From positions 1-43,818 of IMG/VR virus record IMGVR_UViG_3300033182_001235: DNA of 43,818 nt; one strand, written 5' to 3'. Origin of the DNA: a virus. The position numbers and the translations under genes were made by a program. Numbering within the stretch: the stretch's first letter is position 1; each line of letters starts with the position of its first letter. The notes under the pieces were generated by a model. It was not told the DNA's origin. It did not search any database and saw only the letters and a list, made by a program, of their open reading frames with translations. This document shows, in pieces, positions 2,647-32,805 of the stretch.

Positions 2647-3365
2647 TATTTTTTAAAAAATCTAAAATAACAATAGATGCATTTACAAATGTTACAGGGG
2701 TGTATGAATACTTTCCTATACAACATGCTAACAAGTTTATACCCGAGTGGTGGAAAAAAATACCAGGATATCTAAATTTGCCAAACAGCGTAGGCATAAA
2801 TGTAAAAACTCCTACAATGAGAACTTGTAGTGGATTTATAGATTTATATAATCAAGGGTTTGTATTACCTTTATGGGCAGATTTAGTTTTTGAAACAAAA
2901 GAAACAGGTGAATATGCATTTCAATTTTCTAATCCAGAAAGCACAATGAATAGTCATATGAGTAACCAGTTTGGAAATTATTTAAAAGATAAAATACACT
3001 TAAAAATTATAAGTCCTTGGTATCTAAAAGAAAAATCAGGAGTAAAATTTTTATTATTTCAACCTGTTTGGAATCATTTAACTTCTTATCCTGATTTTAA
3101 TATGCCGCCTGGTGTAGTTGATTTTAAAAATCAAGTAGTTTCTAATGTTAATATGTTTGTTCCTGCAAAAGATGCTAGATACGAAGTTAAAAATAACACT
3201 CCTCTAATGCATATTATACCGTTAACTGATAAAAAGGTGCAAATTAAGCACCATTTAGTAGATGATAAAGAATACAATAAATTACACGATAAAGTAGAAT
3301 ATCATAGTACTTTTTTAGGTAAAATGAGTAATAATAAAAAACTAAAAAAGAATCTTACCACTTAG
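2643..3365 (+). CDS. Phage protein of unknown function, paralogue of 11535-12263
   Basis: A 240-residue protein whose family I cannot name with confidence. It aligns with the product of 11535-12263 through P(E/D)W(W/F)K near the N-terminus, a C...F(I/L)D....G(F/Y)..P block, a SPW block, a G(V/I)VD turn followed by N..., and P..H/V.IIP near the C-terminus. The alternation of strands and turns suggests a mostly beta fold; a cupin-like or DUF6065-like assignment is only a guess. It starts by an ATGA-type overlap with the upstream P4H-like gene and is the third gene of a plus-strand oxygenase operon. Both copies are found only next to 2OG oxygenases, hinting at a shared pathway. Confidence 0.6.
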   Translation: MIFFKKSKITIDAFTNVTGVYEYFPIQHANKFIPEWWKKIPGYLNLPNSVGINVKTPTMRTCSGFIDLYNQGFVLPLWADLVFETKETGEYAFQFSNPESTMNSHMSNQFGNYLKDKIHLKIISPWYLKEKSGVKFLLFQPVWNHLTSYPDFNMPPGVVDFKNQVVSNVNMFVPAKDARYEVKNNTPLMHIIPLTDKKVQIKHHLVDDKEYNKLHDKVEYHSTFLGKMSNNKKLKKNLTT

Positions 3366-11534: not shown

Positions 11535-12263
11535 ATGAACAAATTGACTATTAAATTTTCAAAACCCTCAGTTCCTATCAACACACTAACGCCTGGTCAA
11601 CAGGTAGTAGAAACATTTGATCAATGGGACGACATACCAAAACCATATCCTGCTACAAAAAATGTACCAGATTGGTTTAAACATGCATCGCAATGGGGAG
11701 GAAAAATTAACACTATACCAACTGTTAAAAAATGTCCTCCATTTCTTGATGCGTTAACTGCTGGATACATTATACCGTACAGCGGAAGTGTTACTTTAAC
11801 TAAGACTGAAAAAGGACATATAACAAAGTCTTCTACAAAGGGTAGTATTTTTATGAGCAGTCACGTTAAAGGACAATACGAGTCAACACCATGGAAAGAC
11901 CTATCAGTACTTAAATTTTCAAGTCCGTGGATTATTTCAACACCACCTGGTTGGAGTTGTTTGTTTATTCATCCTTTAAATGATTCTAATACAAAATTTA
12001 AAACCTTAAGTGGGATTGTCGATACCGACACATATAGAGTGCCAGTTAACTTTCCGTTCTTGCTCGATATTGAGCCAGGAGAATCAATCGAGTTTACTCA
12101 AGAAACTGCTATGGTACAAGTTATTCCATTTAAAAGACAAGCATGGAACATGGAAATTGGTGATGCTAATATGGTTGAATGGGATACTCATCAAGAACTT
12201 CTTGGCAAGCCTGGAAATGATGCATATAAAAACACATTTCATCAAAAAAAGAAATTTACTTAA
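11535..12263 (+). CDS. Phage protein of unknown function, paralogue of 2643-3365
   Basis: A 242-residue protein. It shares with 2643-3365 the blocks VPDWFK (PEWWK there), CPPFLDALTAGYIIP, FSSPWIIS, a G(I/V)VD turn followed by a conserved Asn, and VQVIPF. I do not recognise the family. It is predicted to be mostly beta, soluble and without membrane segments. It is transcribed divergently from an oxygenase gene and overlaps by 8 bases the end of the convergent J-domain gene. No Shine-Dalgarno is evident before the ATG. Repeated co-occurrence with 2OG oxygenases suggests participation in the same process. Confidence 0.62.
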   Translation: MNKLTIKFSKPSVPINTLTPGQQVVETFDQWDDIPKPYPATKNVPDWFKHASQWGGKINTIPTVKKCPPFLDALTAGYIIPYSGSVTLTKTEKGHITKSSTKGSIFMSSHVKGQYESTPWKDLSVLKFSSPWIISTPPGWSCLFIHPLNDSNTKFKTLSGIVDTDTYRVPVNFPFLLDIEPGESIEFTQETAMVQVIPFKRQAWNMEIGDANMVEWDTHQELLGKPGNDAYKNTFHQKKKFT

Positions 12264-12555
12264 CTCGTTGTATGCTTACACTGCCCATTGCTTGAGAAAT
12301 ATTAAATTCAAGTTCTTGATCTTTTTCAACAGTGACTTCAGATACGTCAACTCTAACAACATTTGCATAGATATCGTACCGATTTCTTTTTTGCGTGTCT
12401 GACAATATGTTGTATGCTTCTTTAATTTTATTAAATTTATCTTTATTACCGGTAGGACGATCAGGGTGATACTTCATTGATTGTTTTCTAAATGCTTCTT
12501 TTATTTCAGAGGAAGTAGCACTCGGTGTAATTCCTAATAGAGCATAATAATTCAT
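12256..12555 (-). CDS. J-domain (DnaJ-like) protein
   Basis: A 99-residue protein. Residues 1-60 form a complete J-domain: YYALLGI at the start, the diagnostic HPD at 30-32 and KIKEAYNILSD...R..YD at the end. The J-domain stimulates Hsp70 (DnaK) ATPase. The remaining 40 residues (VVRVDVSEVTVEK...) match no Gly/Phe or zinc region, so this is a short type III J-protein that would recruit host DnaK to a particular client. Its ATG overlaps the stop of 12555-12893 (TAATG), placing it last in an operon behind the halogenase. The client may therefore be the halogenase or another member of that operon (inference). Confidence 0.9.
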   Translation of the reverse strand: MNYYALLGITPSATSSEIKEAFRKQSMKYHPDRPTGNKDKFNKIKEAYNILSDTQKRNRYDIYANVVRVDVSEVTVEKDQELEFNISQAMGSVSIQRVK

Positions 12556-12893
12556 TATCGTCTTGGATCGTAGAGTAGGTCTATTTCACTAATACTAATT
12601 TTTCCATCAACAAACGTGCTATCTTCGCCATATTTTATAGGACGCACAGCAATCTTTCCACCTCTAATGTTAGGCATAATTTCTACAGTGTTTGGTGGAA
12701 TAATAATATCATAGTTTTCTGCCGTAAGCACTTCATTAAGGTCATCTTCAGATCGTGTAAACACTATATGAAAACCTAATTGACTTGTTGCTACTCTTAC
12801 TTGTTCGGTAAAAAACGGCCCCATGACAAAACTATCATCTTGGTTAACATCGGTAACTTCGTAAACGTGTGTTGTATAGAATTTCTTGATCAT
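12555..12893 (-). CDS. Unknown 112-residue protein between halogenase and J-domain genes
   Basis: The family is not recognised. The sequence is mixed alpha/beta with charged segments (SEDDLNEVL, YDIIIPPNTVEIMP, ISISEIDLLYDPRR), no Cys, no signal peptide and no membrane segment. It lies 8 bases after the halogenase stop and overlaps the J-domain start by TAATG coupling. The ATG is preceded by TTATAAATAGTATT, which contains a perfect T4 late-promoter core (see 12894-12908), so it may also be made from its own late mRNA. Confidence 0.6.
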   Translation of the reverse strand: MIKKFYTTHVYEVTDVNQDDSFVMGPFFTEQVRVATSQLGFHIVFTRSEDDLNEVLTAENYDIIIPPNTVEIMPNIRGGKIAVRPIKYGEDSTFVDGKISISEIDLLYDPRR

Positions 12894-12908
12894 AATACTA
12901 TTTATAAC
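12894..12908 (-). promoter_or_regulatory. Perfect T4 late-promoter core TATAAATA abutting a start codon
   Basis: The minus strand reads GTTATAAATAGTATT directly before ATG at 12893. With the usual T4 spacing of about six bases from the box to +1, transcription would begin at the A of the ATG, giving a leaderless mRNA. It overlaps the halogenase stop codon. Confidence 0.55.
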
Positions 12909-14398
12909 TTGCTATACCAATCTTTAAGGTAGTCGTAATGATTAGGTAAGTCTTGCATCATACGTTCAATTCTAAAATCTTCAATATCCTTGTAACTCTT
13001 CGCATATTTTACATACTCGTCGCTCAAAAATGCTAAATTTCCTTCATAAAAATCACTTCCGTGTAGCATTTCAAACCATTGTCCTGTATGGAACATACTT
13101 GTTATATTTGGTATAAACATTTGATCTTTTGGTCCAGGCAAAAAATGATCTAATCTCTGCTTACATGTATCAGGATATTCTTTTTCTGTAACATCTTTCC
13201 AAAAATCTGTATCTTTCTTTGATGCTAATTTGTAATGTAGGAAAATAAAGTCACGAATTTCGTAAAACATCTTTAAAAACTCGTTATTAATAAAATTAAT
13301 GTTGTCTTGTAGCCAGCGGCCATCGGTCGTTCTTAGGCTATGTACTAAAAATTCAAGAGTTTTTGTGGTAAATGTGATTCCTGTTGCTTCGAGTGGTTCA
13401 ACAAACCCTGCACTTAGCCCAACAGCAACAACATTGTGGTGTGCAACACCTTCGTGTGTACCAATACGCATGTTTAAATGATTTGCTTCAGCATCATATT
13501 CGCCAATTGCTTCACGCAATTCTGCTTCTGCTTCTTCTGGAGTACAATATTTGTCACTATATACGTATCCGTTACCAATTCTTTCAAATGTAGGTATAGT
13601 CCAACGCCAACCGTTCTTCATTGTGGTTGCTTTTGTGTATGGATGGCATTCTTCTTGTGGATTTGTATACTGCTTAGGTATTGCAACGGCTTTATTACAT
13701 GGTAAATTTTCTGTTTCGTCAATAAATCTAACACCAAGAGTCTTTTCTAATAGAATACTTTTAAATCCACTACAATCAATATACAAATCTGCAGAATATT
13801 CCTCGCCTTTACTGTCTCGTAAACATTTAACACCACGTTCGTTGGTATCTACTTCAACAATGTCAGCATTAACGTGGTTAATTTTTGTAGAAATTAACTT
13901 TTTAATAGTGTTACCAATCTCATGTGCATCAAAATGCACAGCGTCCCATGTAGGCGATAACCAACCGTGTGTAAAATCCATTAAATGCGTAAGTTTAGGT
14001 GATAAATTTTTCTTTGCTACACGATAACTTTGTAAAAAGTTAAAAAAGTCTTCCTTGTCTTGACTTAGCCAGTAATTAAATGTAGGAACTTCAGGTGCTA
14101 ATAAAAAAGTACTAAAATTATCGTTATCAACAAAATAAGGCTTATCTGCCCAACCATCAAACTCAACCCCTAACTTGTATGTTGCTTTAGCATCTTTCAT
14201 CCAGTCTAACGGTTGTAGGCCGCAGTCTCTTAAAAATTGCATTGTGTAAGGTTGTGTTCCTTCGCCTACTCCAATAATGCCAATTTTGCTACTTTCAATT
14301 AATTGAATATGCACTGCCTCTGGAATAGTATTTCTTAAATATGCGGCAGTTAACCAACCGCTTGTTCCGCCACCTAAAATAATAATTTTTTTAATCAT
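12902..14398 (-). CDS. Flavin-dependent halogenase (tryptophan halogenase family)
   Basis: From ATG 14398 (ATGA overlap with the upstream gene; an earlier ATG at 14413 adds five residues without family support) the protein has 498 residues, the usual length. It has GGGTSGW (9-15, FAD), GVGEGT (43-48), TYKLGVEFDGW with the expected catalytic Lys at 75, GWRWTIP (263-269, the WxWxIP halogenase signature) and GFVEPLEATGI (331-341). Such enzymes use FADH2, O2 and halide to make HOX, which is passed to the Lys. VirX1, characterised from a cyanophage, shows that marine phages carry active members. Substrate cannot be read from the sequence. It sits in an operon with 2OG oxygenases and a J-protein. 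Confidence 0.92.
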   Translation of the reverse strand: MIKKIIILGGGTSGWLTAAYLRNTIPEAVHIQLIESSKIGIIGVGEGTQPYTMQFLRDCGLQPLDWMKDAKATYKLGVEFDGWADKPYFVDNDNFSTFLLAPEVPTFNYWLSQDKEDFFNFLQSYRVAKKNLSPKLTHLMDFTHGWLSPTWDAVHFDAHEIGNTIKKLISTKINHVNADIVEVDTNERGVKCLRDSKGEEYSADLYIDCSGFKSILLEKTLGVRFIDETENLPCNKAVAIPKQYTNPQEECHPYTKATTMKNGWRWTIPTFERIGNGYVYSDKYCTPEEAEAELREAIGEYDAEANHLNMRIGTHEGVAHHNVVAVGLSAGFVEPLEATGITFTTKTLEFLVHSLRTTDGRWLQDNINFINNEFLKMFYEIRDFIFLHYKLASKKDTDFWKDVTEKEYPDTCKQRLDHFLPGPKDQMFIPNITSMFHTGQWFEMLHGSDFYEGNLAFLSDEYVKYAKSYKDIEDFRIERMMQDLPNHYDYLKDWYSKL

Positions 14399-15018
14399 TT
14401 GATTTCTGCCCAATTAAAATGTTCTTGATTTCCCAATGTTGTTGGAATAATGTTAAAACTCATTGTATATCTTGTACGTTTAGTTATGTTCTTTTCACTT
14501 CGATGTTCTACATAACTTGGCCACATTACCATTTTATTTGCCTGTGCTTTACTGACAATTTTATCAGTTAAAAATGGACTGTGTCCGTCTCTTTTAATGC
14601 TGATCATGTTACGCATCTTACTAACAGGATTATAAAACTCAGTGCCTCCTTGCTCAGGAGTAGTATTTAGATAATAAACGCCACTAATAAAACTGTTAGT
14701 ATGCATATGCGGACCAATACTTTGTACATTTTCAAATTTATTCATCCACATGCTTGTTATTTTTAATTCTTCAGGTTGATAACCAAGCGAATTACAAAAT
14801 ATGTAACCACATTCTATAACTTTATCAGCAAATTTTTTAAATTCTACTTGTGTATGAAGGTTTTGTTTAGATATTTGATACATAGGAAACTCTTCATATC
14901 CTTGTTTATGATTAACCCACTCAACAGCATCAATCATTTCATGTATTTCTTGGTCTGTAAAGTCTAATTGAAACTCTACAAAACCTGTAGGAAAGAAACC
15001 AAGTGTATTATATTCCAT
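14395..15018 (-). CDS. Putative 2OG-Fe(II) oxygenase (TIGR02466 type)
   Basis: A 207-residue protein with GFFPTGFVEFQLDF, ITSMWMNKF, GPHMHTNSFISGVYYLN (metal-site region), GGTEFYNP, NKMVMWPSYVEHRSE (distal His) and RTRYTMSFNIIPTTLG (2OG-binding Arg). It overlaps the upstream oxygenase by 11 bases, with GGGGAAG before its ATG, and overlaps the halogenase start by ATGA. This very close coupling suggests that oxygenase and halogenase products are made together and may act on the same substrate (inference). Confidence 0.88.
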   Translation of the reverse strand: MEYNTLGFFPTGFVEFQLDFTDQEIHEMIDAVEWVNHKQGYEEFPMYQISKQNLHTQVEFKKFADKVIECGYIFCNSLGYQPEELKITSMWMNKFENVQSIGPHMHTNSFISGVYYLNTTPEQGGTEFYNPVSKMRNMISIKRDGHSPFLTDKIVSKAQANKMVMWPSYVEHRSEKNITKRTRYTMSFNIIPTTLGNQEHFNWAEIK

Positions 15019-15643
15019 ATCTTCTTCCCCTACTGTTTTTTCCTAAGTTTTTTAAATTAAATGTATAAGGTATAACAATACGTTCGTGTAACTCTGAAGG
15101 ATTAGTAAAATTATTTTGCCCAGTCATGTGAGGAATACTGCTTCTAAAGATTACACATTGTCCAGTTTTAGCAGGAATATAATATTCGCCTTCAGTTATA
15201 CTATTTCTTTCTTTAAAATCTGGTTGCCAGCTTTCCCATTTAAAGTCTGGTTTAAGTAATCCTAACGGAGCAGAGCCTTCTGGAGCATTTAGGTAATAAA
15301 CAGCACTAATAAGACTATTTGCATGAATATGAGGTTTGTGTGTGCTGGCGCTATTTTTACTTAAAACTGCCCAACTGTCAGCAATAAAAATATCTTCCTT
15401 ATCTACGTCCCATCCAACACTATCCATAAAAGCATGTACTTGCTCTATTAACCAACTATTTAGATATTGCAGTTCGTTATAATTGTGTATGCTACCGTCT
15501 GTTACATACCCTAATCCTTCGCCGTTATCTAAACTTTGTTCGTGTTCGAGTTTTCTAATCAAGTCATAGATTTTTTTATGATCATCAGTATCTTCACGTT
15601 GCGAGAGTCCAAAGTGTGTAGGCCAAATAGAGTTTAACTGCAT
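15008..15643 (-). CDS. Putative 2OG-Fe(II) oxygenase (TIGR02466 type)
   Basis: A 211-residue protein. Its segments are LNSIWPTHFGLSQ at the N-terminus, IADSWAVLSK, KPHIHANSLISAVYYLN (metal-site region), GQCVIFRSSIPHMTGQ (distal His) and RIVIPYTFNLKNLG (2OG-binding Arg). The insert between the YYLN strand and the distal His is longer than in its neighbours. The start overlaps the previous stop (TAATG), with AAGGAG eight bases before the ATG. Second of three consecutive oxygenases upstream of the halogenase. Confidence 0.86.
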   Translation of the reverse strand: MQLNSIWPTHFGLSQREDTDDHKKIYDLIRKLEHEQSLDNGEGLGYVTDGSIHNYNELQYLNSWLIEQVHAFMDSVGWDVDKEDIFIADSWAVLSKNSASTHKPHIHANSLISAVYYLNAPEGSAPLGLLKPDFKWESWQPDFKERNSITEGEYYIPAKTGQCVIFRSSIPHMTGQNNFTNPSELHERIVIPYTFNLKNLGKNSRGRRYGI

Positions 15644-16227
15644 TACAAAAACTCCTTAATTCCTTTTTCAAAGTAGATTCCTTTATCATAAAAACTATCA
15701 TACTTATGATCTTTGTAAGGACCGTCAGCATCTACATAATGTAAAAATACTTGACCTAACAAATAATCTGGAATATCACATGTTTCTCTCCAGTGTTCAA
15801 CTTCGCACCCTTTGTATATTACTGCATCTCCATCATCTAAATATACTTTTTCATTTTCAATTACAATAGGCCAGTTGCCTTTTCTGTTGTCACTTAATTT
15901 TACAGTTAAACTATATTCACATGCTGGTCTGTCGATATGCTTAGGTAATGTATTTCCAGTTGTGTATAATCTTGCATATGTATATGTAGGATATAATTTT
16001 TTACCAGTAGCATCTTCTACCTTTTTATGCATAAAATTTAGAAAACTATCAAATACAAGATCACCGCTTCTTGGGCCTAAACAACCCGGAACCATTGCAT
16101 CACCGGTTTTTGCCATAGGGTCGTCGCCTTGCATGATATAAACTTTTGTGCTAAACAATAGATATTCGTAAAGAAACTGTGCAGTTTCTTCATTTATAAA
16201 GTTACGTATGACAGTAAAATTAACCAT
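15643..16227 (-). CDS. Putative 2OG-Fe(II) oxygenase (HIDR type)
   Basis: From ATG 16227, which overlaps the upstream stop as TAATG, the protein has 194 residues; a start at 16281 would extend into the previous gene without support. It has FTVIRNFINEETAQFLYEY at the N-terminus, YTYARLYTTGNTLPKHIDRP with a canonical HxD metal motif, EYSLTVKLS and WPIVIE strands, DGDAVIYKGCEVEHWRE (distal His) and QVFLHYVDADG. This belongs to a different 2OG subgroup from its two downstream neighbours. Substrate unknown. The context is an operon of fused U32-like/methyltransferase, three oxygenases and a halogenase. Confidence 0.84.
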   Translation of the reverse strand: MVNFTVIRNFINEETAQFLYEYLLFSTKVYIMQGDDPMAKTGDAMVPGCLGPRSGDLVFDSFLNFMHKKVEDATGKKLYPTYTYARLYTTGNTLPKHIDRPACEYSLTVKLSDNRKGNWPIVIENEKVYLDDGDAVIYKGCEVEHWRETCDIPDYLLGQVFLHYVDADGPYKDHKYDSFYDKGIYFEKGIKEFL

Positions 16228-17942
16228 TAAGTGATATGCTCGCGTTTTTTTCTTAAAACAAAAATACCCAAGCCATTCCAATAATCAGTTGGATCTTCTC
16301 CTGTAGTTTTTATTTCTTTTTTGTATAGTACTGAATAATTCATTTCATTGATATGATCGTCTGTTGCTGTTTGTATTTGTGTCCAATTCCAATCGTCCAT
16401 AATTAGTACCATAGTTTCTTCAAACTTTTCATAATATCTGTCTAAAAAGTTTTTAGTTTGTTCGTAAGTATGATCGCCATCATAAAATACTATATTACAA
16501 GTATATGGAATTTTTGTCAAGTCTAATGTTTCAACAGGTTCATTAAAACCAAGTACTTTGTTTGTTCCTTTAACTTTTGAAAGATTTTCTTGGAATATTT
16601 CTAAAGGATTTCCGTCCTTACCTTCCCATCCTTCAACATCTCTCATTGGTTCAATGTCATTAGTGTGCCAACTATCAATACATATTGCTTGTATTTTGTT
16701 ATTTTCTAATGCACTACAAAATGTTGCACCGTGCCATGTACCTACTTCAAGATATCTTACATCTTTTGCTTCGCAAAGATTATTTAAAAAATGTTTTACT
16801 TTATGACTCGTTAACCCTTCAATATCTAAAGTTGACTGTGAACATTTGCTTTGTTCGTCCATACTTTTTTCTATCGCAGTGTTTACTGAACTAATAAATT
16901 TGTTTTTAGTTTTAGCACTAACAACATCTTCGCAGTAGTGACATTTCCAACAATTAAATTTACAATTTTTAATTTTGTCTCGCCATACTTTAATAGGTTT
17001 ATTATCAAGATCCCCAATTTCGATAAATTCATTAAAATTATCAAATAATATTTCTTGTTCACTTGCAAACTTTTCTACAAGATCGACTGTTTCCCATAGT
17101 CTACCAATATCTTCTCTGCCATGCATTTTAAATACATCAATACCGCAGTCCATAAGTTCTAACCAATCATCTCTCCATGGAGTAAAATTAGCCACTTTAA
17201 GTTGTGCCGCCGGATCCATAGCGTCCCAACGAGGGCATGTAGGTTTAGAAATAGGATCCATAAAAAATGTAGGACTTTGTACTTCTGCTCTTGCGAAGTT
17301 AAATTCAAAGTGTTCGTCTTGTACAGGACAATTTCCCCAACAGCCTTCATTAGCAAGCAGACTTATTTTAAAATCTTCACAAATGTTTTTTCTTATATAG
17401 TCTTTTGCTTCTTTGATTTCAAGTAATTTGTCACGGTCACGCATTAAGTCTCTATCAAGATTTACATAGTAAAATCCTGCTTCAGCAAGTTTTACAACTT
17501 CATTTGCACGTTGCACGTTACGTAAAATTGTATTTTTAACACGCAATTCAGGAAATTGTTTTTGTATTGCTCCTTGTAGCATCCACATAGTATGCGGTAG
17601 TGTTACAATACGTACTCCTTGGTCGTACAACGGTTTAAAATTTTCAATAAAGATTCTTAGGTTATCTGTTGTAGGCGGAACATTGATATTATTAAAAGTT
17701 GCACTTACGGGTATACCAAGATTGCGTTGAATTTCTAACGCATTTTGACTTATTGCGCCCCAGTCTCCTTGATGGAAAACATCTCCCATTGCATCCTGCC
17801 CAAACGGAGGTATGCGACAAGTAAAATATACATCATAAATGTATTCTTTATGTTTTTCAAGGAAAGGTACAAACCTTCCTGTAAAACTTTCATAATCAAG
17901 TTTCGGATTCAGGGGAATCGAGAAGTTTTGCATTTTTTTCAA
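16227..17942 (-). CDS. Fusion of a U32-like TIM-barrel protein and a class I SAM methyltransferase
   Basis: A 571-residue protein with two halves. Residues 1-340 look like a peptidase-U32 (UbiU/UbiV/TrhP/RlhA) type TIM barrel: GIPVSATFNNIN, IVTLPHTMW, ANEVVKLAEAGFYYVNLDRDL and NEGCWGNC. Cysteines at 201, 205, 236, 327, 331, 334 and 337 could hold an Fe-S cluster. Residues about 380-571 are a methyltransferase of the Methyltransf_24 kind: YLEVGTWHGATFCSAL (SAM site, 397-412), CIDSW, FYDGDHTYEQ (486 on) and MDDWNW. U32 relatives perform O2-independent hydroxylations of RNA or ubiquinone precursors. TTG at 17942 has GAGGA five bases upstream; ATG at 17933 is the alternative. The N-terminal assignment is less sure than the C-terminal one. 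Confidence 0.78.
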   Translation of the reverse strand: MKKMQNFSIPLNPKLDYESFTGRFVPFLEKHKEYIYDVYFTCRIPPFGQDAMGDVFHQGDWGAISQNALEIQRNLGIPVSATFNNINVPPTTDNLRIFIENFKPLYDQGVRIVTLPHTMWMLQGAIQKQFPELRVKNTILRNVQRANEVVKLAEAGFYYVNLDRDLMRDRDKLLEIKEAKDYIRKNICEDFKISLLANEGCWGNCPVQDEHFEFNFARAEVQSPTFFMDPISKPTCPRWDAMDPAAQLKVANFTPWRDDWLELMDCGIDVFKMHGREDIGRLWETVDLVEKFASEQEILFDNFNEFIEIGDLDNKPIKVWRDKIKNCKFNCWKCHYCEDVVSAKTKNKFISSVNTAIEKSMDEQSKCSQSTLDIEGLTSHKVKHFLNNLCEAKDVRYLEVGTWHGATFCSALENNKIQAICIDSWHTNDIEPMRDVEGWEGKDGNPLEIFQENLSKVKGTNKVLGFNEPVETLDLTKIPYTCNIVFYDGDHTYEQTKNFLDRYYEKFEETMVLIMDDWNWTQIQTATDDHINEMNYSVLYKKEIKTTGEDPTDYWNGLGIFVLRKKREHIT

Positions 17943-18624
17943 TAGTATCCTCTAATTTAGGTATAAGGTCAATCATGTCAGCATCTTTAAGTTGTTCAAG
18001 TAATTGTTGTTGGACATCTTTTTCTAATGATAAGATACCTGTTTCAAACTTTTTAGTATACTCTAATGCACCCCTAATAATTTTTTCTTGATCGTCGTGC
18101 GGCATTTGCATGATACTTTCCATGTTACCGGTACCAATCTTACCATACGAAAGCATTTCCATTGCACTTTGTTTACCAATTCTTGAGATCCAATATTGGC
18201 GTTCTTTTTCTTCCACGTTTTCAGAAAGTTCAAGCATTTCCTGTTTATTAGGAACTATCTTTCTAAACGAATCAATTAAACGAGATCGCTCTCGTTTAAT
18301 ACCTTCAATACGTCTTTTTGTTCGTTCTGCACCCTCTACTTTTTCGTCAATTTCAATTTGTAGTAGTTTGCGTCTTGCAGGAGACTCTTCTTTTTCAAGA
18401 TCTTCTCTAAGAATTTCAGTGTTGGCTTCCATCTTTTTTAGATTCCAGCCGTGATCATCTAATGCTTGAGTTCGATGTTCAATTTCAATTAAGCATTGTT
18501 TTGCTTTACGCCAATCAGTAATACCAGTGTTAACAACGTAACTCTCCATTTGGTAGTTGCTATAAGCGTAGTCAAAATCAAACGCATATTTAATAAGTTC
18601 GTCGTCAGTGTAATCAGCAGACAT
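17896..18624 (-). CDS. Coiled-coil protein of unknown function
   Basis: A 242-residue, highly charged protein starting MSADYTDDELIKYAFDFDYAY. Residues about 75-165 are Glu/Lys/Arg-rich with heptad-like spacing (LREDLEKEES, EIDEKVEGAERTKRRIEGI), typical of a long coiled coil. Residues 190-242 are helical and acidic. No enzyme motif is seen. It is the first gene of the island II operon and overlaps the U32-like/methyltransferase gene by 47 bases. The ATG has a strong TATAGGAG site that lies partly in an inverted repeat. It could be a structural protein of the upstream fibre cassette rather than part of the tailoring group. Confidence 0.62.
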   Translation of the reverse strand: MSADYTDDELIKYAFDFDYAYSNYQMESYVVNTGITDWRKAKQCLIEIEHRTQALDDHGWNLKKMEANTEILREDLEKEESPARRKLLQIEIDEKVEGAERTKRRIEGIKRERSRLIDSFRKIVPNKQEMLELSENVEEKERQYWISRIGKQSAMEMLSYGKIGTGNMESIMQMPHDDQEKIIRGALEYTKKFETGILSLEKDVQQQLLEQLKDADMIDLIPKLEDTIEKNAKLLDSPESET

Positions 18625-18675: not shown

Positions 18676-19428
18676 TTAGATATTATTGAACAACTCTCTT
18701 GCTGGAGTTTCTTCGATATTGTCGATACCAAACGGTAATTCTAAGTATTTTTGGCAAAACGCTTGTACTTGTCTTACTGTAGTAGCATTTTTAAGTTCTT
18801 TACGTAGTTTTGTAGAAATACCTAATACTTTGGCAACTTTTTTCTGATATTCTTCACTATTTCTAATGATAGAATCTGCTAAATTAGCAACAGTAACACC
18901 TTTAGCATTAGCCAACTCTTTTAGTAGTGTTCCTGCAGAATTAGTTTGTTTATATTCTTTGGCTTGTGAATATTGAATTTGCCAAGTTTCTTTATCAACT
19001 GGGCCGCGATCAACATCAAGAGTTGAATAAGCACTTATGGCATACACTGCAAGTTTTCCAGTAATCCATGCTTTATCAAAATTAACAATCTTTGCTTCTT
19101 CTTCCGCAGTCCATGACACTTTGGTTTTAGTCCAAGTATTGCCGTTTTCATCTTTGTCTTTACCAAGATTAGATTCTTTAGTAGGACGCCATGTATCAGT
19201 TACTTCGTCAGTTTGGTCACAAGTCCAGTATTCATTATAGTGTTTTAAACTTTTTGATACACCAAACTCATATTCTTCGTCAGTTAGTTTTTTTGCAAAA
19301 ACAAAACTTGACCAATCAATGTATTCATAGTATTTGTCGTCAACATCTGCAACAATTCCACCATATAAAGGGTTAACTGTACGCATGTAACCGTTTTCTT
19401 GTTCTCTTCCAAAGTATAGTATTTTCAT
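18676..19428 (-). CDS. Structural or fibre-accessory protein downstream of giant fibre B
   Basis: A 250-residue protein. The N-terminal half is beta-like with many aromatics (ILYFGREQENGYM, YYEYIDWSSFVFAKKL, HYNEYWTCDQ); the C-terminal half is helical (KEYKQTNSAGTLLKELANAKGVTVANLADSIIRNSEEY). No known family is recognised. It starts five bases after the fibre B stop, in the position that the Gly-rich tip and accessory genes occupy in cassettes A and C, so it may be the B-specific tip or assembly protein. A GGGATTTAATT leader similar to that of fibre A precedes the ATG. Confidence 0.6.
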   Translation of the reverse strand: MKILYFGREQENGYMRTVNPLYGGIVADVDDKYYEYIDWSSFVFAKKLTDEEYEFGVSKSLKHYNEYWTCDQTDEVTDTWRPTKESNLGKDKDENGNTWTKTKVSWTAEEEAKIVNFDKAWITGKLAVYAISAYSTLDVDRGPVDKETWQIQYSQAKEYKQTNSAGTLLKELANAKGVTVANLADSIIRNSEEYQKKVAKVLGISTKLRKELKNATTVRQVQAFCQKYLELPFGIDNIEETPARELFNNI

Positions 19429-19433
19429 ATCAA

Positions 19434-22400
19434 TTAAATCCCTGTACTAAATGTTGCGCCTGAAGAACAACCCGGTTGACCTTTTGGCTGTAGAGCACTT
19501 TGTCCACTGTTACCGTTACTAAATGAATCGTTTGAATATGTAAGTTTCCAACTGTCATTGGCTTGGCCCACTGAGCCCTGCCACATACCAATTGAATAAC
19601 CTGCGTCTTGTCCCATCTGCATGTTATGTTCGCCTTGTGTGTTCTGTCCGTTTGGATAGTTACCAATTGTACCTATTGAACTGTCGTTTGAAGTATTGAC
19701 TTTTTCAAGGTTACGTGAGTTGTTTGGTGGACCAATATAGTAGTAACCATACTTACTTGTTAGTCCTTTAGAGTGTGTACCTTGTGTTCCAAACATACCA
19801 CTCCAAGATTCTGTACTAAACGAAATCTTTCTGTGTGTTCCGTTCCAGTGATAACCTGCTGTTTCACTCCATGCCGCTCCAAGATAGTCTGAACTCAAAC
19901 TTGAATTGTTTACGTTTGTACGCATTGTTTCTGTTGAGTGTGTCATAATATCTGTGTTAGCAGAACCACCACCAGTAATTACTGTTTTGCTTGTATCTTC
20001 GTTTGATACACCATGGTCGTTTCTTCCTGTACTCATGTTCAAGTTACCGTTGTTGAAACCCTTACTGGTATCGTTAGTCATGTTAAATGCCCAACCTCTG
20101 TTAGAGTTAGTTGGATAACTTGGATCGTTACCCCATGTCCAACCTGTTACGTCACTGAATCCACCATCCATATATGTACCTGGCTGGGACATGATGTTAC
20201 CTAAGTTACTTGTTGTATCGTTTGAGTGATTAGTTCTGTTTACGTTTGACCATGGTACACTACTCTTATAACCACCTGCCATATAGCCTCTGTTAATAAG
20301 TGTTCTGTATCTCCAAGTAGTTCTACCAGTAATGTTAAATGATACACTGTCACTTGCTGGGAACGCCGCATCGTCAGTAGCAGTAATTTCAACTGTTGCT
20401 GTTCTTGAGTATGCTCTGTTCAACCAACTGTGGTTAATTGTACCACTAATTAAACCCGAGCCACTGTTAAGTGATAGACCATTACCAAAAATGTTGTCTG
20501 GGTCACTTGTTACAGTGTAAGTTAGTGTTTGTCCTGGATCAGGCTCGTTTGCAGTAAGTTGAATGCTTGTTGTACCATAAGTGCTATCTGTTGTAGTACC
20601 ATCATCACCACCTGGTGTAGTTCCTGCTGTTGGTGAAGTAATAGTAGGTGCAGTATTCTGTAATACCTCAATTGAATATGCAACGTCTGTATATACACTA
20701 CCATACTCGCCCTGTGAAGCAAATCTTACAGTAAAGTTAAATGTTGTTGTGCTTGGAACGCTTGGTAGTGTACCAGTAATTGCACCAGTACCGCTGTTAA
20801 TAGTCAACGGACCGCCGTTTTCAGTAAACAAACTTCCTGGATCCGATTCAATTGAGTAAACAATAGTATCACCATCTGGATCAGTAGCACCAACTGTTTG
20901 ACTAAATGCTGTTGACTCTTGGAAACTACCTAATGAACCTGCAGGTGTACTTGGTGCCGGAGCATTGTCAACTTCAATACCACGTGGTAGTGTTGTTTTA
21001 CTACCATTTGATGCTGTTAACTCAATGTTGTATCTATCTGCCGCTAACGCACTAAATGTACCAACACCTGTTTGAATTTGTAATTCTTGTTCACTTACAA
21101 AAGTTACCTGACTGATCGGAACTGTTATTCCGCCAATTACTACTGTAGTTGGATCAGTAAATTTATCACCAAGTATTTCAATAGTTGTGTTTACGTCTGG
21201 ATCAAAAATGTTAGGTGTAACACTAACGATACTTAGACCAGCACCGCCCGATACTGCCCATTCAGTACCATCGTAGAATTCAATAGTCTTAAGCGTGGTG
21301 TTATAACGCAACATACCTTCAATTGTTTCTGTAGGTCGTTGTGTATTAGTACCACGTGCAAGTACCATTGCATCAGTGCCCATAAATCCTGATTTAACAA
21401 ACTTGTAAACAGCACCTTCAGTTGGTACACTGTTATCTGAAACATCTGTTAAGTTAGGGTCTGTACTAAATTCGTTAATTGTAGCACCCTGCTTACCAGC
21501 AGTAATACTACCAAGTTGTAATTCGTTCAAACCTGTTAAGTCGAATTCTTCTGATGAAAGTGTTGCTCTACCTGTGGCCTGTTCAACTTTAAAGTAATCA
21601 CCAACTCGGAAGTTACCATCTTGGTCAGTGGTTACGTAGAATACTCGTCCACCACCTTCTGAAACTGTTTCAAATTCTTGACTTGGCTGTTGTGTGTAGT
21701 CTGCTTTAATAATAACTGGATAGTTAGTATCAGCAAAACCACCAGTACCAATATCAAGGAAGTCATGTCCTGTCATACGTACTTGCGAGAACGCTTCACG
21801 GAATACAATTCTTGCACCTTCATCTGGTGTTTTGTTTGAAGGAATCTTAGGATCAAGTGCAATGTTAGCACTACCATAATTAGTTTTTGCAGGTGCCGCA
21901 GTCTTACCAATGTTAATAATATCAATAACAATTTGAACAAGATTTTGTGCTGTAGTGTCAGTACCTGCTTCAGCAGTTAATCCAGGGTCTGTTACCTGTG
22001 GTGTTGCTGAATATGTTGCCGCAGGAGCAGTTTCGTTAATAACATTTGCAATAATTGTTTTTAGATATCCAATTGATGCAACAGTTTCTGCTTTTTGTGT
22101 TGTAATAGCATAAAGTGCCGATGAATTTTCGTAATACTTGTAGCCAGCCTCAACGCTTTCACCGTTAGTATCGAAGTCTAAGTCATGCAATACAGCATCA
22201 ACAATTAATCCAACATCACGTCTACACAGTGTTTGATCGTATGTAAACGATGTAGTAAATGGTGAAATGTTATTTGCAATTTGATAATTGATCCATCCAA
22301 TAACTTCGTCTTGTAAGAATGTTTTATTAGCATTTAAAAGCGCATAAGCACTTGGACTATTACCATCTGCAATAGTTGGTGCAGTGTAGTTACTTACACC

Positions 22401-25400
22401 AATAATAAAGTATGTTTCTGGGTCATTATCAATAAATGCTACAGAACCGTCCTTAATACCTCTTTCAAGACCGTTAACAGCAAAACTGATACCAGTACCA
22501 ATACTTGCAAAACCTGAACGTGTTGCTTGAATATTTAATACTTTGTTTTCTGGAGCAGTTTCAACAATACCATTTGTTTCTGTTAATGTTAATGTTGCAT
22601 CTGCAGGATCCATATCATGGAATACATAATCAAGAATTGTGTCGTCTTCGATAGTAGGACTTACAGTAATATACTGATAACTACCACTTGAATCGTCTAA
22701 CGTACCAAACGAACCACCTGTTCTTGAGAAGTTAAAGTAGCCTGCATTATTACCATTTGCTTGGCCTGCCATGATCAAGTTAACACCGTCAATATCAACG
22801 GATCTTAATACAACGCCCGAACCGTCGTCTGAAAGTTCTCTACTAAATGCGTGTACGCCGCGGCTATCAAAACTTGAAATCAAACCATTATATATACCAC
22901 TGCCTGCTGATGTTTCAACAGCACCAACAGCATAAATTTCGTCACCTAACGGTGTTACACGAGTATAATAACCTTCTTTAAGTGTAGCATATTGTTTTTG
23001 CCACGCAATGTCACCGTCACTAATTCTAATTCTTGCAACGATTGGATTGTTATACTGGGTCAGTGTTGACGGTGATCTCATTTCAACTGTTTCACCGTTT
23101 TGGAAACTACCTGATGTAATGTTTACGTCAATGTTTTGAACGTTACCACTTACACCTTGGTTAGCAACAACTGTTGCTACGCCGCCACCACTGCTGTATA
23201 AATTATAACCTGCAATAATATCTGCGTTTTGATCAAGTGTTGCACCGCCGGTGTTCATTGAAATACGTGTACTTCCGCCTTGGCCGCCGCCAACGTTAAC
23301 AAGGGCAACAGTTGATGATGTACCACTTGCATATGTTAATTGTTCTAATGGGAATACGTAAGATATTACATCTCTCACAAACTGACCACAAGTTACAAAG
23401 TACAAACCGTCTTCACCGGTGTTGTCAAACTTCATATCCATCATAGTGAAGTCGCCTAAGTGATAACTCTTTTGGTAGTTACCATTAGAATCGTAAATTG
23501 CAATACCTGTTTGGTTTGCAGTGTTGTCGTCAAATGCTAAGAAAATCTTACCTTCTAATGATGCATCGCCTTCGGATTCATATGTAACAGTACTTGATAA
23601 ACTTTCTCTACCATAATCAAGTGCAACAGCAGAAATACTATTAACAGTACTGTCGTCGTAGTTAAGTGTTTTACTCCATTGTACAACACCACCGTTTGAA
23701 ATCTTAGTTAGCGTTACACCTTGTGTTGCGTGGTTACCAGCAACATACAAACCTTGTGCACCGTCGTGTGTAACAGACGTAATTGTAGTACAGTTAGCAA
23801 GTGTTTTTTGCCAGTTAACTTCGCCAAGTCTTGTAAACTTAACAACAAATCCTTTGTATTGTGAACTTTGATAAATTCTACCAACAGCATAGTAGCCGCC
23901 TGCTTCATCTTCTGTAATAGCAAGTAGTTCACCTGGGAAACCTACGTTGTCATTTGTTGGCTCACCAATTGTTTCCTGCCAATCAAATGCATTACCAGTC
24001 CAACGTGCCAAGTACATATATGAATCAGTATTTGAAAACCCTGTCTCACCTGAACCAGACCAAGTAGGATTAGTATGACCAACAGCAAATACATCGCCTG
24101 TTGTATCTTTATATGAATTCTTAAATGTAACATTGTGCTGAATTTCTTGAATAGCATCAAGTTCTTGTGTTTCAAGTCTAATGTTACCTGTTAATGGATC
24201 TTCTGCTTGTGAAAATCCGTTTGCTTTAACACCTATTTCACCATATGCTGATGAACCGTTTACAGAACGAATCTTACCGCCCGACTCTGCTAAGTAACCA
24301 ACAGCACAATAATATGTAAACACTGATACAAGTTCTGAACGTCCGTCATTTAGTGCGTGAATACCAATACCGTCACTGTTAACCTGTGTCCAGTCATTAG
24401 CAACCATTGACTTATAACCACCGTTGTGTAGGCCGCCGTCAATCTTCATACCAGTACCGCCCGGTGTAAAGTTAGTACAGTTTTGTACATATGGTGACTG
24501 TGAAGTAACCCATACACTTGTGTCGTCTGGGCCAGTACCTGGGTCAAGTGATGCTTGAACCGATCCTGTACTAAAGTTACGGAACACAATGTTACGTAAT
24601 CTTGCACCATTGTTCATTAAGAACACGTACGAGTTTGCATTTGGTGTAGATCCGTCATCTGAAATACCAACACCGTATCCGTTATCGTTAGTAGTATCTG
24701 GTTGTACGTCAACAGCACCAAGTCCGCCGCCTTCTACAACTACACCTCTACCAATTCTAATTGGACATTGTTCTTCGTATGTTCCAGAAGCAATTTGAAT
24801 AATTGATTGGCCTCTATTAAATGTTTGATCACAAGCGTGTCTAATAGTACGCCATGCTGTTGCAGGTGTTCTACCATCATTAGCATCATTACCTTGTGGC
24901 GAAACGAAATAATCTTGTTGCGGAGTTTGGTTACCCCATTTAACGTCAGTACCGTCACTGTATAAGTAAGAGCCTGCAGGTCCAACTGGTAGTCTAATGT
25001 TACCAACTGTGCCTCTAACAATAATATCACCTCTTGTAGTAGTAATTGTACTTGCATCACCTTGTGCTACAAGATTCCAATCACTTGGCGAAACGTTAGG
25101 AGTATCACCAATCGTTTCACGTAATGCAATATATGAACTTAAATTGTATTCAACAACATCATCTGCATAGTATGTTACAGCAACGTCCCATTGGCCTTTC
25201 CAATTCATACCTGGTAAGAATGTTGACCAAATGCCGCCGCCTGAAGCAGGATCACTTGGGTTATTTGATAGTGTAGGAGTGTGTACTACTTGTGCTTCGT
25301 ATAATCTACCACCTTCAAGTACAATGTCGCCTGGATAGTATATTCCAGCATTTTCGTCCCAAACACCTCTGTATTCAAATGCTTCAACAAACACATCATA

Positions 25401-26600
25401 ATATTGTGTTGTTGTTGGAGTTGTACCTACTGGCGGTGTTTGACCTTGTTTAACAATGTAACGTTTTGCACCGTACTTAACAACGTCACCAGCGGAATAA
25501 CTTGTGCCGCTATCCCATGTACTTCTTTCGTTGTATGATGTTGCAAAAATATCCCAACTGTTTGTATTTGTTGGATTAACTCCTGTTGAATCATTTTTAG
25601 CAATATATAAGTAACCACCATATCTTATAATATCTTGTAAGTAATATGATTCACTTGCATTCCATTCGCCTCTCCAACCAGAGCCAGCGGCAACAAGTGC
25701 CCAATAAGCAGAACTTTCACTAATAGTGATTGTTGACCAATCACCGTCAGTTGCTTGTTCTGTCATGTCTGCATGGTTATGGCAGTACCAATAAAGTGTA
25801 TCTGGTGCACTTTGAGCAACAGTAATTCTTACTTCTCTTGTAGTTGCGGCATTAAAGCCTACAAGATATTCTGTTTTGCCAATTTGTAATTGGCCATCAA
25901 GATAATATTCAACACCTTCTTCGTAACTTATACCGCCTGCGTGTGTACCGTTACCTGTTTTAGAAAATAGGATTGGATGACCGGTGTTTGTTCCGTTGTC
26001 TTGATTAAAAATGTATGTATTTCCTTCTGTGAACGCAAGATCTGGTGCTTGTGTTCCATCAACGAAATATCTGTTTCCGCCAGTACCGCCAAGTGTATCA
26101 ACATTTACTGTGATAGCATAAGTTGTTGTTGACGCTGTACCACTCGGTTTATTACCGCCAGTTGTATGTTGGATGTTTAAGTATAGTGAATTACCATAAG
26201 TAACAAGGTTACCAATGTTATATTCTGTGGTATTGTCATATTCACCGTCGTATTCAATACCTGAAATATATAAGGTAGCATCAGCAGATGTAGATGTTTC
26301 AAAGTCAGCGCCGGAAGTATGTCCTTGGGTAACAATATAGACATTTGACTTGTACTTAACAACGTCGCCTCGTTTGTAATCTGTTCCTGTTTGCCAATCA
26401 CCTTTCCAATCAGTACCGCCTGCCATCTTTTCAAGTTTATTACTTGTAAGATCTGCTTCTACTGACGAAGATGTGTGATTTTCTTTAACTACATAAGAAA
26501 TGCCGCCATGCAGTACTACATCGTCCTTGACGTACGAATAGCCGGTGTTCCAAGCACCTCTCCACTTAAATTTGATTCTACCTAAATTAAAATCTGCCAT
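19434..26600 (-). CDS. Giant modular tail fibre B with inserted cupredoxin-like domain (2388 aa)
   Basis: A paralogue of fibres A and C, but far longer. Residues 10-512 carry seven carbohydrate-binding-like modules; the third is interrupted by a cupredoxin-like domain (about 160-295, ligands H208, C273, H276, M279). A beta-helix follows (YFVSPQGNDANDGRTP onward), then a propeller-like section with its own extra inserts. The shared core (FREAFSQVRMTGHDFLD, GRATLSSEEFDLTGLNELQ) is split by an inserted helical segment of about 165 residues. An RYNTT module, an IPT/TIG-like domain and two cadherin/Ig-like repeats (GATDPDGDTIVYSIES) come next. The end is a kelch-like section starting INRGYMAGGYKSSVPW. 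AAGGATGGG precedes the ATG. Probable virion fibre of the distal tail. Confidence 0.85.
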   Translation of the reverse strand: MADFNLGRIKFKWRGAWNTGYSYVKDDVVLHGGISYVVKENHTSSSVEADLTSNKLEKMAGGTDWKGDWQTGTDYKRGDVVKYKSNVYIVTQGHTSGADFETSTSADATLYISGIEYDGEYDNTTEYNIGNLVTYGNSLYLNIQHTTGGNKPSGTASTTTYAITVNVDTLGGTGGNRYFVDGTQAPDLAFTEGNTYIFNQDNGTNTGHPILFSKTGNGTHAGGISYEEGVEYYLDGQLQIGKTEYLVGFNAATTREVRITVAQSAPDTLYWYCHNHADMTEQATDGDWSTITISESSAYWALVAAGSGWRGEWNASESYYLQDIIRYGGYLYIAKNDSTGVNPTNTNSWDIFATSYNERSTWDSGTSYSAGDVVKYGAKRYIVKQGQTPPVGTTPTTTQYYDVFVEAFEYRGVWDENAGIYYPGDIVLEGGRLYEAQVVHTPTLSNNPSDPASGGGIWSTFLPGMNWKGQWDVAVTYYADDVVEYNLSSYIALRETIGDTPNVSPSDWNLVAQGDASTITTTRGDIIVRGTVGNIRLPVGPAGSYLYSDGTDVKWGNQTPQQDYFVSPQGNDANDGRTPATAWRTIRHACDQTFNRGQSIIQIASGTYEEQCPIRIGRGVVVEGGGLGAVDVQPDTTNDNGYGVGISDDGSTPNANSYVFLMNNGARLRNIVFRNFSTGSVQASLDPGTGPDDTSVWVTSQSPYVQNCTNFTPGGTGMKIDGGLHNGGYKSMVANDWTQVNSDGIGIHALNDGRSELVSVFTYYCAVGYLAESGGKIRSVNGSSAYGEIGVKANGFSQAEDPLTGNIRLETQELDAIQEIQHNVTFKNSYKDTTGDVFAVGHTNPTWSGSGETGFSNTDSYMYLARWTGNAFDWQETIGEPTNDNVGFPGELLAITEDEAGGYYAVGRIYQSSQYKGFVVKFTRLGEVNWQKTLANCTTITSVTHDGAQGLYVAGNHATQGVTLTKISNGGVVQWSKTLNYDDSTVNSISAVALDYGRESLSSTVTYESEGDASLEGKIFLAFDDNTANQTGIAIYDSNGNYQKSYHLGDFTMMDMKFDNTGEDGLYFVTCGQFVRDVISYVFPLEQLTYASGTSSTVALVNVGGGQGGSTRISMNTGGATLDQNADIIAGYNLYSSGGGVATVVANQGVSGNVQNIDVNITSGSFQNGETVEMRSPSTLTQYNNPIVARIRISDGDIAWQKQYATLKEGYYTRVTPLGDEIYAVGAVETSAGSGIYNGLISSFDSRGVHAFSRELSDDGSGVVLRSVDIDGVNLIMAGQANGNNAGYFNFSRTGGSFGTLDDSSGSYQYITVSPTIEDDTILDYVFHDMDPADATLTLTETNGIVETAPENKVLNIQATRSGFASIGTGISFAVNGLERGIKDGSVAFIDNDPETYFIIGVSNYTAPTIADGNSPSAYALLNANKTFLQDEVIGWINYQIANNISPFTTSFTYDQTLCRRDVGLIVDAVLHDLDFDTNGESVEAGYKYYENSSALYAITTQKAETVASIGYLKTIIANVINETAPAATYSATPQVTDPGLTAEAGTDTTAQNLVQIVIDIINIGKTAAPAKTNYGSANIALDPKIPSNKTPDEGARIVFREAFSQVRMTGHDFLDIGTGGFADTNYPVIIKADYTQQPSQEFETVSEGGGRVFYVTTDQDGNFRVGDYFKVEQATGRATLSSEEFDLTGLNELQLGSITAGKQGATINEFSTDPNLTDVSDNSVPTEGAVYKFVKSGFMGTDAMVLARGTNTQRPTETIEGMLRYNTTLKTIEFYDGTEWAVSGGAGLSIVSVTPNIFDPDVNTTIEILGDKFTDPTTVVIGGITVPISQVTFVSEQELQIQTGVGTFSALAADRYNIELTASNGSKTTLPRGIEVDNAPAPSTPAGSLGSFQESTAFSQTVGATDPDGDTIVYSIESDPGSLFTENGGPLTINSGTGAITGTLPSVPSTTTFNFTVRFASQGEYGSVYTDVAYSIEVLQNTAPTITSPTAGTTPGGDDGTTTDSTYGTTSIQLTANEPDPGQTLTYTVTSDPDNIFGNGLSLNSGSGLISGTINHSWLNRAYSRTATVEITATDDAAFPASDSVSFNITGRTTWRYRTLINRGYMAGGYKSSVPWSNVNRTNHSNDTTSNLGNIMSQPGTYMDGGFSDVTGWTWGNDPSYPTNSNRGWAFNMTNDTSKGFNNGNLNMSTGRNDHGVSNEDTSKTVITGGGSANTDIMTHSTETMRTNVNNSSLSSDYLGAAWSETAGYHWNGTHRKISFSTESWSGMFGTQGTHSKGLTSKYGYYYIGPPNNSRNLEKVNTSNDSSIGTIGNYPNGQNTQGEHNMQMGQDAGYSIGMWQGSVGQANDSWKLTYSNDSFSNGNSGQSALQPKGQPGCSSGATFSTGI
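19437..20290 (-). other. Kelch-like C-terminal section of fibre B (bases 19437-20290)
   Basis: Coordinates run from the segment's 5' end on the minus strand to its 3' end; the interval is 19437 to 20290. It begins RGYMAGGYKSSVPW and repeats short units of G, aromatic, T/N and S (for example TGWTWGNDPSYPT, GAAWSETAGYHW, GYYYIGPPNNS). Fibres A and C end instead in a compact GDNVRF-type beta domain, so B has exchanged its C-terminal end. Confidence 0.5.
21880..22385 (-). other. Helical insertion splitting the shared core of fibre B
   Basis: Between the strand FIIGVSNY and the block LDPKIPSNKTPDEG, fibre B carries about 165 extra residues that are largely helical (ALLNANKTFLQDEVIGWINY, RRDVGLIVDAVLHDLDF, NLVQIVIDIINIGKT). 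Fibres A and C have only about ten residues at this point. Boundaries are approximate. Confidence 0.6.
24574..24674 (-). repeat. Tract nearly identical to fibre C (39881-39981)
   Basis: By eye, 98 of 101 bases match 39881-39981, with a run of 63 identical bases, while flanking sequence of fibres B and C differs at many synonymous sites. The equivalent part of fibre A (about 9034-9134) differs at roughly a quarter of positions. Likely a recent recombination or gene-conversion tract. Confidence 0.7.
25065..26573 (-). repeat. Seven carbohydrate-binding-like modules in fibre B, one interrupted
   Basis: The modules start at the aromatic pairs FKWRGAW, WKGDW, YDGEY, WRGEW, RSTW, YRGVW and WKGQW, each followed by Y..GD(V/I)V-type strands. 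The third is split by the cupredoxin-like domain at 25716-26123. Confidence 0.7.
25716..26123 (-). other. Cupredoxin-like domain inside fibre B
   Basis: Residues about 160-295. Features are NRYFVDGTQAPDLAFTEG, TYIFNQDNGTNTGHPILF with H208, and YWYCHNHADM with C273, H276 and M279. The His...CxxHxxM set has amicyanin-like type I copper spacing. The domain sits in a loop of the third carbohydrate-binding-like module. Confidence 0.65.
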
Positions 26601-26617: not shown

Positions 26618-26627
26618 TATTTATTTA
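26618..26627 (-). promoter_or_regulatory. Possible late promoter AATAAATAA-type box for fibre B
   Basis: The minus strand has AAATAAATAAATAA at 26617-26630, ending just before the AAGGATGGG ribosome site of fibre B and overlapping the stop of 26625-26999. It resembles the late box but lacks the final C and is low complexity. Confidence 0.35.
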
Positions 26628-26999
26628 TTTTGGCTCCGTGTAGGCATAATCCTCATTGAATCGTACAATAAGATCGCCGTCGTCGTTGATAAAATAAAAC
26701 TGTTCTCTTCCACTAAACTTATATTGATCATATAAGGTATTGGTGTTTGGTTTACCAGTTGCATGATTATAGTTATCAAAACTGTAAGTTACACCTTCCC
26801 ACGTGGTGCTTCCAGCGTCTTTGCTTAATTGAATTGCAGTTCCTCTATCAATCATGTCAAACTTTGTGTAAATTAGCATACCGTCATCATCGACAGTTAA
26901 TGCATGAAATGAATCTTCTCGTGTGCCAGCATATTCACCGCCGCCGCCTCCGCCGCCGGAACCGCTTAAATCTGCTATAATTCGAGCATTGCTGGTCAT
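26625..26999 (-). CDS. Small fibre-cassette protein, paralogue of 10639-10875 and 41295-41555
   Basis: A 124-residue protein, longer than its two paralogues. A glycine run (about 14-21) is followed by the family pattern: TREDSFHALTVDDDGMLIYTKFD near the N-terminus and FYFINDDGDLIVRFNEDY at the C-terminus. The central portion (GSTTWEGVTYSFDNYNHATGKPNT) is extra. It is encoded immediately before giant fibre B, as the two relatives are before fibres A and C. Function unknown; a fibre-partner role is inferred. GGAG precedes the ATG, with a late-promoter box at 27027-27036. Confidence 0.7.
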   Translation of the reverse strand: MTSNARIIADLSGSGGGGGGGEYAGTREDSFHALTVDDDGMLIYTKFDMIDRGTAIQLSKDAGSTTWEGVTYSFDNYNHATGKPNTNTLYDQYKFSGREQFYFINDDGDLIVRFNEDYAYTEPK

Positions 27000-32766: not shown

Positions 32767-32794
32767 AACTGTAATTACCTTTTTAAAAACGTCA

Positions 32795-32805
32795 TAATTA
32801 ATAGT
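32795..32805 (+). promoter_or_regulatory. ATG-abutting box TAATTAATAGT
   Basis: A perfect TAATTAATAGT copy ending at the base before the ATG of 32806-34002, in a 39-base divergent gap, with no ribosome site beside it. Confidence 0.55.

Follow-up and report, generated by a model that had tools for sequence, protein, structure and literature searches.

Why should a marine phage keep a halogenase, three oxygenases and a methyltransferase in one compact run of genes? The question is raised by the IMG/VR record IMGVR_UViG_3300033182_001235, a 43.8-kb virus record without end repeats (hereafter the window, meaning the whole stretch analysed), which, judged from its sequence, covers fibre and baseplate genes of a T4-like marine phage. 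Eight coupled minus-strand open reading frames (ORFs) lie at 12256–18624, all of them where an earlier note on this DNA had placed them. We found that the predicted propeller at the tip of the adjacent giant fibre, a coiled-coil-like protein (CC) and a barrel–methyltransferase fusion enzyme (U32MT) behave as an obligate set. On balance we believe, with some confidence but well short of certainty, that the cassette is a fibre-tip maturation set, the Kelch tip being the substrate and the enzymes being dedicated to it. The central features are as follows.

19434..26600, minus strand: giant fibre gene, 2388 aa with CBM_5_12 repeats, at the head of the unit
19437..20315, minus strand: TIP, C-terminal Kelch-type beta-propeller of the fibre (residues ~2096–2388; predicted model), the proposed substrate
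17896..18624, minus strand: CC, coiled-coil-like protein, phrog_1409, obligate partner
16227..17942, minus strand: U32MT fusion enzyme, phrog_1458 (conserved start ATG at 17933)
16908..17942, minus strand: U32MT N-terminal Cys-rich alpha/beta barrel-like domain
16389..16751, minus strand: U32MT methyltransferase domain PF13578

The linkage was counted, after dereplication, in the 52 U32MT loci that had 4 kb or more of upstream DNA. Tip and CC lay no more than 5.5 kb upstream of U32MT in 51 of them, and 6–8 kb upstream in the 52nd, S-ShM2. When 50,697 phage records were searched, tip, CC and U32MT each matched 123, with the same organism tally, a sameness read from counts and tallies rather than from full record lists. 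The full-length Syn33 fibre matched 144 of the 50,697, 21 more than the tip, and the surplus records, among the matches listed, match only its first ~106 residues, the N-terminal stem (S-MbCM6, S-CAM22, P-SSM7 and S-H38 are examples). The enzyme therefore seems to be missing where this stem carries a different tip.

In relatives, a counterpart of the C-terminal ~290 residues of the fibre again precedes CC and U32MT; in cyanophages it belongs to a short fibre protein of its own, labelled 'sericin 1 precursor-like'. The structure model of the tip was all-beta (predicted local distance difference test, pLDDT, 86; predicted template-modelling score, pTM, 0.86) and matched the six-bladed Kelch propeller of Keap1 (E 4e-14, TM 0.77/0.81). 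The Pfam Kelch profile found no match in 32 tip members, and neither did a PDB sequence search with the tip profile. By this model the region is predicted to be a six-bladed Kelch propeller, which is a claim of fold only. Eight loci have two tandem copies of the tip ahead of the cassette, and one locus has three; the loci with such repeated tip genes before CC are L100, L101, L123, L124, L137, L139, L061, L063 and L135.

The remaining members of the unit, with its putative promoter elements, are listed here.

26618..26629, minus strand: overlapping NATAAATA elements, T4-type late promoter, 18–22 nucleotides (nt) before the fibre start
18676..19428, minus strand: g18676, phrog_1604, conserved cassette member, in 45 of the 52 loci
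15643..16227, minus strand: OG3, 2-oxoglutarate (2OG)-Fe(II) oxygenase-like, phrog_2954, HID motif
15008..15643, minus strand: OG2, 2OG-Fe(II) oxygenase PF13759, HxH..H..R
14395..15018, minus strand: OG1, 2OG-Fe(II) oxygenase PF13759, HxH..H..R
12902..14398, minus strand: HAL, flavin-dependent halogenase PF04820, with GGGTSG, Lys80, WxWxIP and Glu motifs intact
12899..12906, minus strand: TATAAATA element, possible internal late promoter, 6 nt before U112
12555..12893, minus strand: U112, 112-aa protein without assigned function, restricted to the window's lineage
12256..12555, minus strand: J, DnaJ-domain protein with HPD motif

Most of the junctions first described were borne out: TAATG at U32MT/OG3, OG3/OG2 and U112/J, an 11-nt overlap at OG2/OG1, ATGA at OG1/HAL and an 8-nt gap at HAL/U112. 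The CC/U32MT overlap has the proposed 47 nt when U32MT starts at the TTG at 17942, but 38 nt with the ATG at 17933 that the alignment shows to be shared by its relatives. The proposed operon start at 18624 proved wrong, since g18676 lies 51 nt upstream of CC and the fibre gene 5 nt upstream of g18676, both on the minus strand. Read from the DNA, the unit would run from the giant fibre through g18676 into the eight genes, behind late-promoter-like elements. Among the domain labels, coiled-coil, methyltransferase, three 2OG oxygenases, halogenase, unknown and J-domain stood, whereas U32-like could not be established.

On the minus strand, NATAAATA, the core of the T4-type late promoter, has six matches (41346, 27035, 26629, 26625, 12906 and 10643), all 6–41 nt before gene starts, and three of these genes are giant fibres. 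The fibre start is preceded by the element at 18 and 22 nt, and the same scan of the minus strand gave no match from there to the end of HAL. An element of this type also precedes the fibre in L052 and in Syn33, where it lies 23 nt upstream of the homologous short fibre. TATAAATA, rarer than shuffles predict (1 observed vs 6), is kept before U112 in relatives, some of which have CATAAATA or AATAAATA instead; because of this conservation, U112 and J may also have their own transcription start. A sigma-70 promoter scan yielded matches no more frequent than in shuffles.

The same gene order was sought in other contigs, and the complete CC-U32MT-OG3-OG2-OG1-HAL-U112-J series was found in eight other IMG/VR contigs, with the expected part of the CC-to-J order in nine truncated ones. 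A more distant contig (L026/L037) is without OG3 and OG2, and L041 and L058 retain only CC-U32MT-HAL, plus J in L041. A scattering of the genes without conserved order, which the earlier note had named as speaking against its reading, was not seen. The median ratio of non-synonymous to synonymous substitution (dN/dS) was 0.05–0.20 for every gene, placing all of them under purifying selection; because of these ratios and the order kept in other contigs, the gene set is not a chance one. Conserved order, the shared late-type unit and purifying selection support the original idea of a compact, co-transcribed tailoring set. Genes, families, order, co-occurrence with the tip, late-promoter-like elements and selection are established directly, and the Kelch fold by prediction.

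What might the fusion enzyme do? Its methyltransferase domain meets the PF13578 profile (1.5e-8, 35.9 bits vs cut-off 26.3), which matched 35 of 36 U32MT relatives. In the 36 members, the PF01136 (Peptidase_U32) profile gave no match at E<0.1; hhalign of the barrel against U32 gave probabilities of 1.9% and 1.5% (P 0.025–0.033) in a sensible register over ~100 columns, and a PDB search with TrhP for a solved U32 sequence found nothing. Foldseek with the whole U32MT model returned mostly pyruvate kinase barrels and methyltransferases, whose alignments spanned two domains and had a poor root-mean-square deviation. Seven cysteines of the barrel are invariant in phage and bacterial stand-alone relatives. 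The nearest solved sequence to the U32MT profile in the PDB is YrrM/TrmR, a weak match (E 0.014), and in Bacillus the U32 proteins YrrN/YrrO together with YrrM carry out wobble uridine hydroxylation and O-methylation (PMC6599085). U32MT might accordingly modify RNA in the same two steps, as TrhP plus TrmR do; yet its U32 membership is not established and the obligate linkage to the fibre tip would go unexplained, and we regard this as highly improbable.

The barrel domain also occurs, without the methyltransferase, in 3 of 397 Campylobacterota genomes sampled. In L144, the barrel gene precedes TolC-, HlyB- and HlyD-like (type I secretion system) genes, and the ORF whose end precedes the barrel gene may be RTX-like, its Pfam hit being sub-threshold. 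In G358, the barrel ends a cluster of TolC-, HlyD-, M50/HlyD- and SecA-like genes, a PF04820 halogenase (1.8e-92) and two APH-like kinases; a halogenase, sought in the other Campylobacterota, was found only in this one genome of the 397. Few as these bacterial loci are, they indicate exported surface proteins as substrates. Two observations stand beside this. The stretch L149:339–9331 of G358 (contig C72; M50/HlyD, SecA-like, halogenase, two APH-like kinases and barrel, with TolC and HlyD genes before) is apparently an undescribed export and modification locus. The third genome carries, on a 4-kb contig, a tandem pair of ~550-aa proteins that both match the barrel domain (L150:662–3954).

HAL matched PF04820 over its whole length (3e-105, 353 bits vs cut-off 21), its GGGTSG, K80, W269-x-W-x-IP and E339/E342 motifs are invariant in nine relatives, and it shares ~34% identity with a Syn10 halogenase. 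A halogenase stands behind U32MT in 18 of the 51 loci with enough downstream DNA, and in our tree these halogenases form one clade (support 1.0) separate from VirX1. Only two members of the clade are not labelled U32MT-adjacent: a truncated contig, and L040, whose halogenase gene is also placed after short fibre-like genes. OG1 and OG2 meet PF13759 above cut-off (3.4e-19 and 4.6e-15); their Fe-ligand motif is HxH..H..R where HxD is expected, and that of OG3 is HID..H. The J domain was recognised by PF00226 (3.8e-23) with H30, P31 and D32 invariant.

For cyanophage halogenases and 2OG oxygenases the usual explanation is auxiliary metabolism or repair (PMC2984593, PMC3037559, PMC9146016, PMC10452541), the prnA genes having been proposed to serve protection or antibiotic-like products and the oxygenases the 2OG level or DNA repair (PMC2984593, PMC3037559, PMC10452541). 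Under such an explanation, HAL and the oxygenases would, in the course of infection, have small molecules or host proteins as their substrates. Among solved proteins HAL lies nearer to PyrH than to VirX1, its closest solved sequences are free-tryptophan halogenases, and J-proteins are able to act on host chaperones, all of which would fit. However, the genes sit after a fibre behind late-type promoter elements, U32MT and CC track the presence of the fibre tip, and the local alignment of HAL to PrnA ends short of the C-terminal part of PrnA. We therefore consider auxiliary metabolism rather unlikely here.

Further genes of these families occur in the window. Each of its three giant CBM_5_12 fibre genes (6107–10609, 19434–26600 and 36925–41298) is followed by its own set of 2OG oxygenases, and the third also by a second, very divergent halogenase (32806–34002, plus strand, 398 aa, two PF04820 stretches) on the opposite strand, overlapping its neighbours by 12 and 8 bases. 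HxH in place of HxD recurs in the PF13759/phrog_81-type oxygenases of the window (OG1, OG2, OGa, 249–815, 816–1469 and 32164–32817). The gene at 34597–35196 (minus strand) matches both phrog_274, 'DNA endonuclease V', and the 2OG profile phrog_81, and the denV label of the phrog_274 family looks wrong.

The earlier note had left three candidate substrates, the fibre, CC and U112. We favour the fibre, since Kelch tip, CC and U32MT co-occur one to one. CC, whose family has no known function, is as constant as the tip, and U112 is translationally coupled between HAL and J, so either might have been the substrate or carrier in place of the fibre. U112, however, is limited to one narrow lineage of 18 close contigs and is disfavoured as a carrier because U32MT, HAL and the tip occur together without it. 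It gave no family match better than E 0.037 and no tblastn match in phages, and a profile search of viral contigs returned only the same 18 loci and no function. Moreover, it is the tip that undergoes duplication, or that is exchanged along with the presence or absence of the enzyme. For CC, the role of adaptor or chaperone is likelier than that of substrate, and we judge either protein as substrate to be distinctly improbable.

Directly after U32MT lies an OG, HAL, DUF6065 or nothing recognised. As a separate observation, phrog_7084, with two genes in the window (11535–12263 and 2643–3365 (+), the first also matching PF19541, DUF6065), immediately follows U32MT in 8 of 51 loci and may be one more member of the cassette.

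Several points weigh against a fibre-tip maturation set. The agreement among the three sets of 123 records is one of counts, and many of these records are near-identical isolates (S-RIM2, S-RIM12 and S-RIM14), so independent lineages or events are far fewer than 123. The halogenase and oxygenases differ between lineages. The bacterial relatives amount to only three genomes. Looking for a HAL-specific Trp in the tip, we found none that stands out (Tyr2335 is present in 100% with HAL vs 62% without, a difference confounded by relatedness). We infer the role of the tip as substrate, as well as each step of the chemistry and any influence on host binding. Finally, the fibre region is a known variable site that gathers genes (PMC3909814), and the linkage of the accessory genes may for that reason be positional. 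If so, only tip, CC and U32MT would belong together, with HAL, the oxygenases, U112 and J as independent passengers. The variable content downstream of U32MT and the occurrence of Fe(II) oxygenases and fibres in the same metaviromic islands, where the former are listed beside the latter under host recognition (PMC3909814), fit such hitchhiking. Against it, the window's lineage keeps one CC-to-J order, with reading frames that overlap, the halogenases behind U32MT are one clade across 18 loci, and barrel and halogenase meet again in a bacterium; we find hitchhiking unlikely.

The enzymes, given how closely the core of their set tracks the tip, probably modify the host-contacting part of the virus. 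In the maturation scheme that we favour, a late transcript would yield the giant fibre first and its dedicated enzymes after. CC, perhaps with g18676 and perhaps with J and host DnaK, which J may bring in, would bind or hold the tip. The barrel–methyltransferase fusion would then put on a core modification, by analogy a hydroxylation followed by O-methylation, an analogy that may hold but draws on the weak methyltransferase match (E 0.014) and an unproven U32 kinship. The accessory HAL and 2OG oxygenases would add lineage-specific marks, probably tuning host binding. That marine T4-like phages at large hydroxylate, O-methylate and halogenate a Kelch tip, and that some bacteria treat exported surface proteins with related enzymes, is a wider proposal that we offer tentatively.

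Ever since the first cyanophage genomes, the halogenases and the many 2OG oxygenases of marine phages have posed a puzzle. In the literature covered, with most subscription journals outside its scope, we found no paper that puts forward a cassette of enzymes for a fibre tip and none with a tail fibre as a halogenase substrate. If the proposal is true, host recognition by very abundant phages hinges on chemistry done by enzymes, which host prediction from sequence leaves out of account, and phage halogenases gain their missing natural substrate, directly testable by virion mass spectrometry.

How does the cassette compare with known systems? VirX1 and the cyanophage prnA-like halogenases are, like HAL, PF04820 flavin-dependent enzymes of T4-like marine phages, that of Syn10 also lying in the fibre region, but HAL falls in a clade of its own, which is linked to U32MT; the table of a review covering VirX1 gives no natural pathway for it (PMC8407142). 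TrhP/YrrN/YrrO with TrmR/YrrM resemble U32MT in that a Cys-rich barrel-like enzyme may be paired with an O-methyltransferase. TrhP requires one Glu and two Cys (PMC6599085), and a Glu-Cys-Cys group is conserved in the phage barrel, although the spacing there is E-x1-C-x3-C vs E-x7-C-x6-C in TrhP. The phage protein also differs in being a fusion, without significant U32 profile match, and in being linked to fibre rather than tRNA genes. The genes for T4 gp38 and Tfa lie directly behind the fibre and mature or complete its tip; these proteins are chaperones or adhesins, whereas the phage cassette encodes redox and methyl-transfer enzymes. In HlyC-type systems and in operons for ribosomally synthesised and post-translationally modified peptides (RiPPs), the modifier gene adjoins the structural gene and an exporter, and the L144 barrel relative is likewise placed. 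HlyC is an acyltransferase and RiPP substrates are short peptides; the proposed substrate of the phage cassette, unlike theirs, would be a folded fibre domain.

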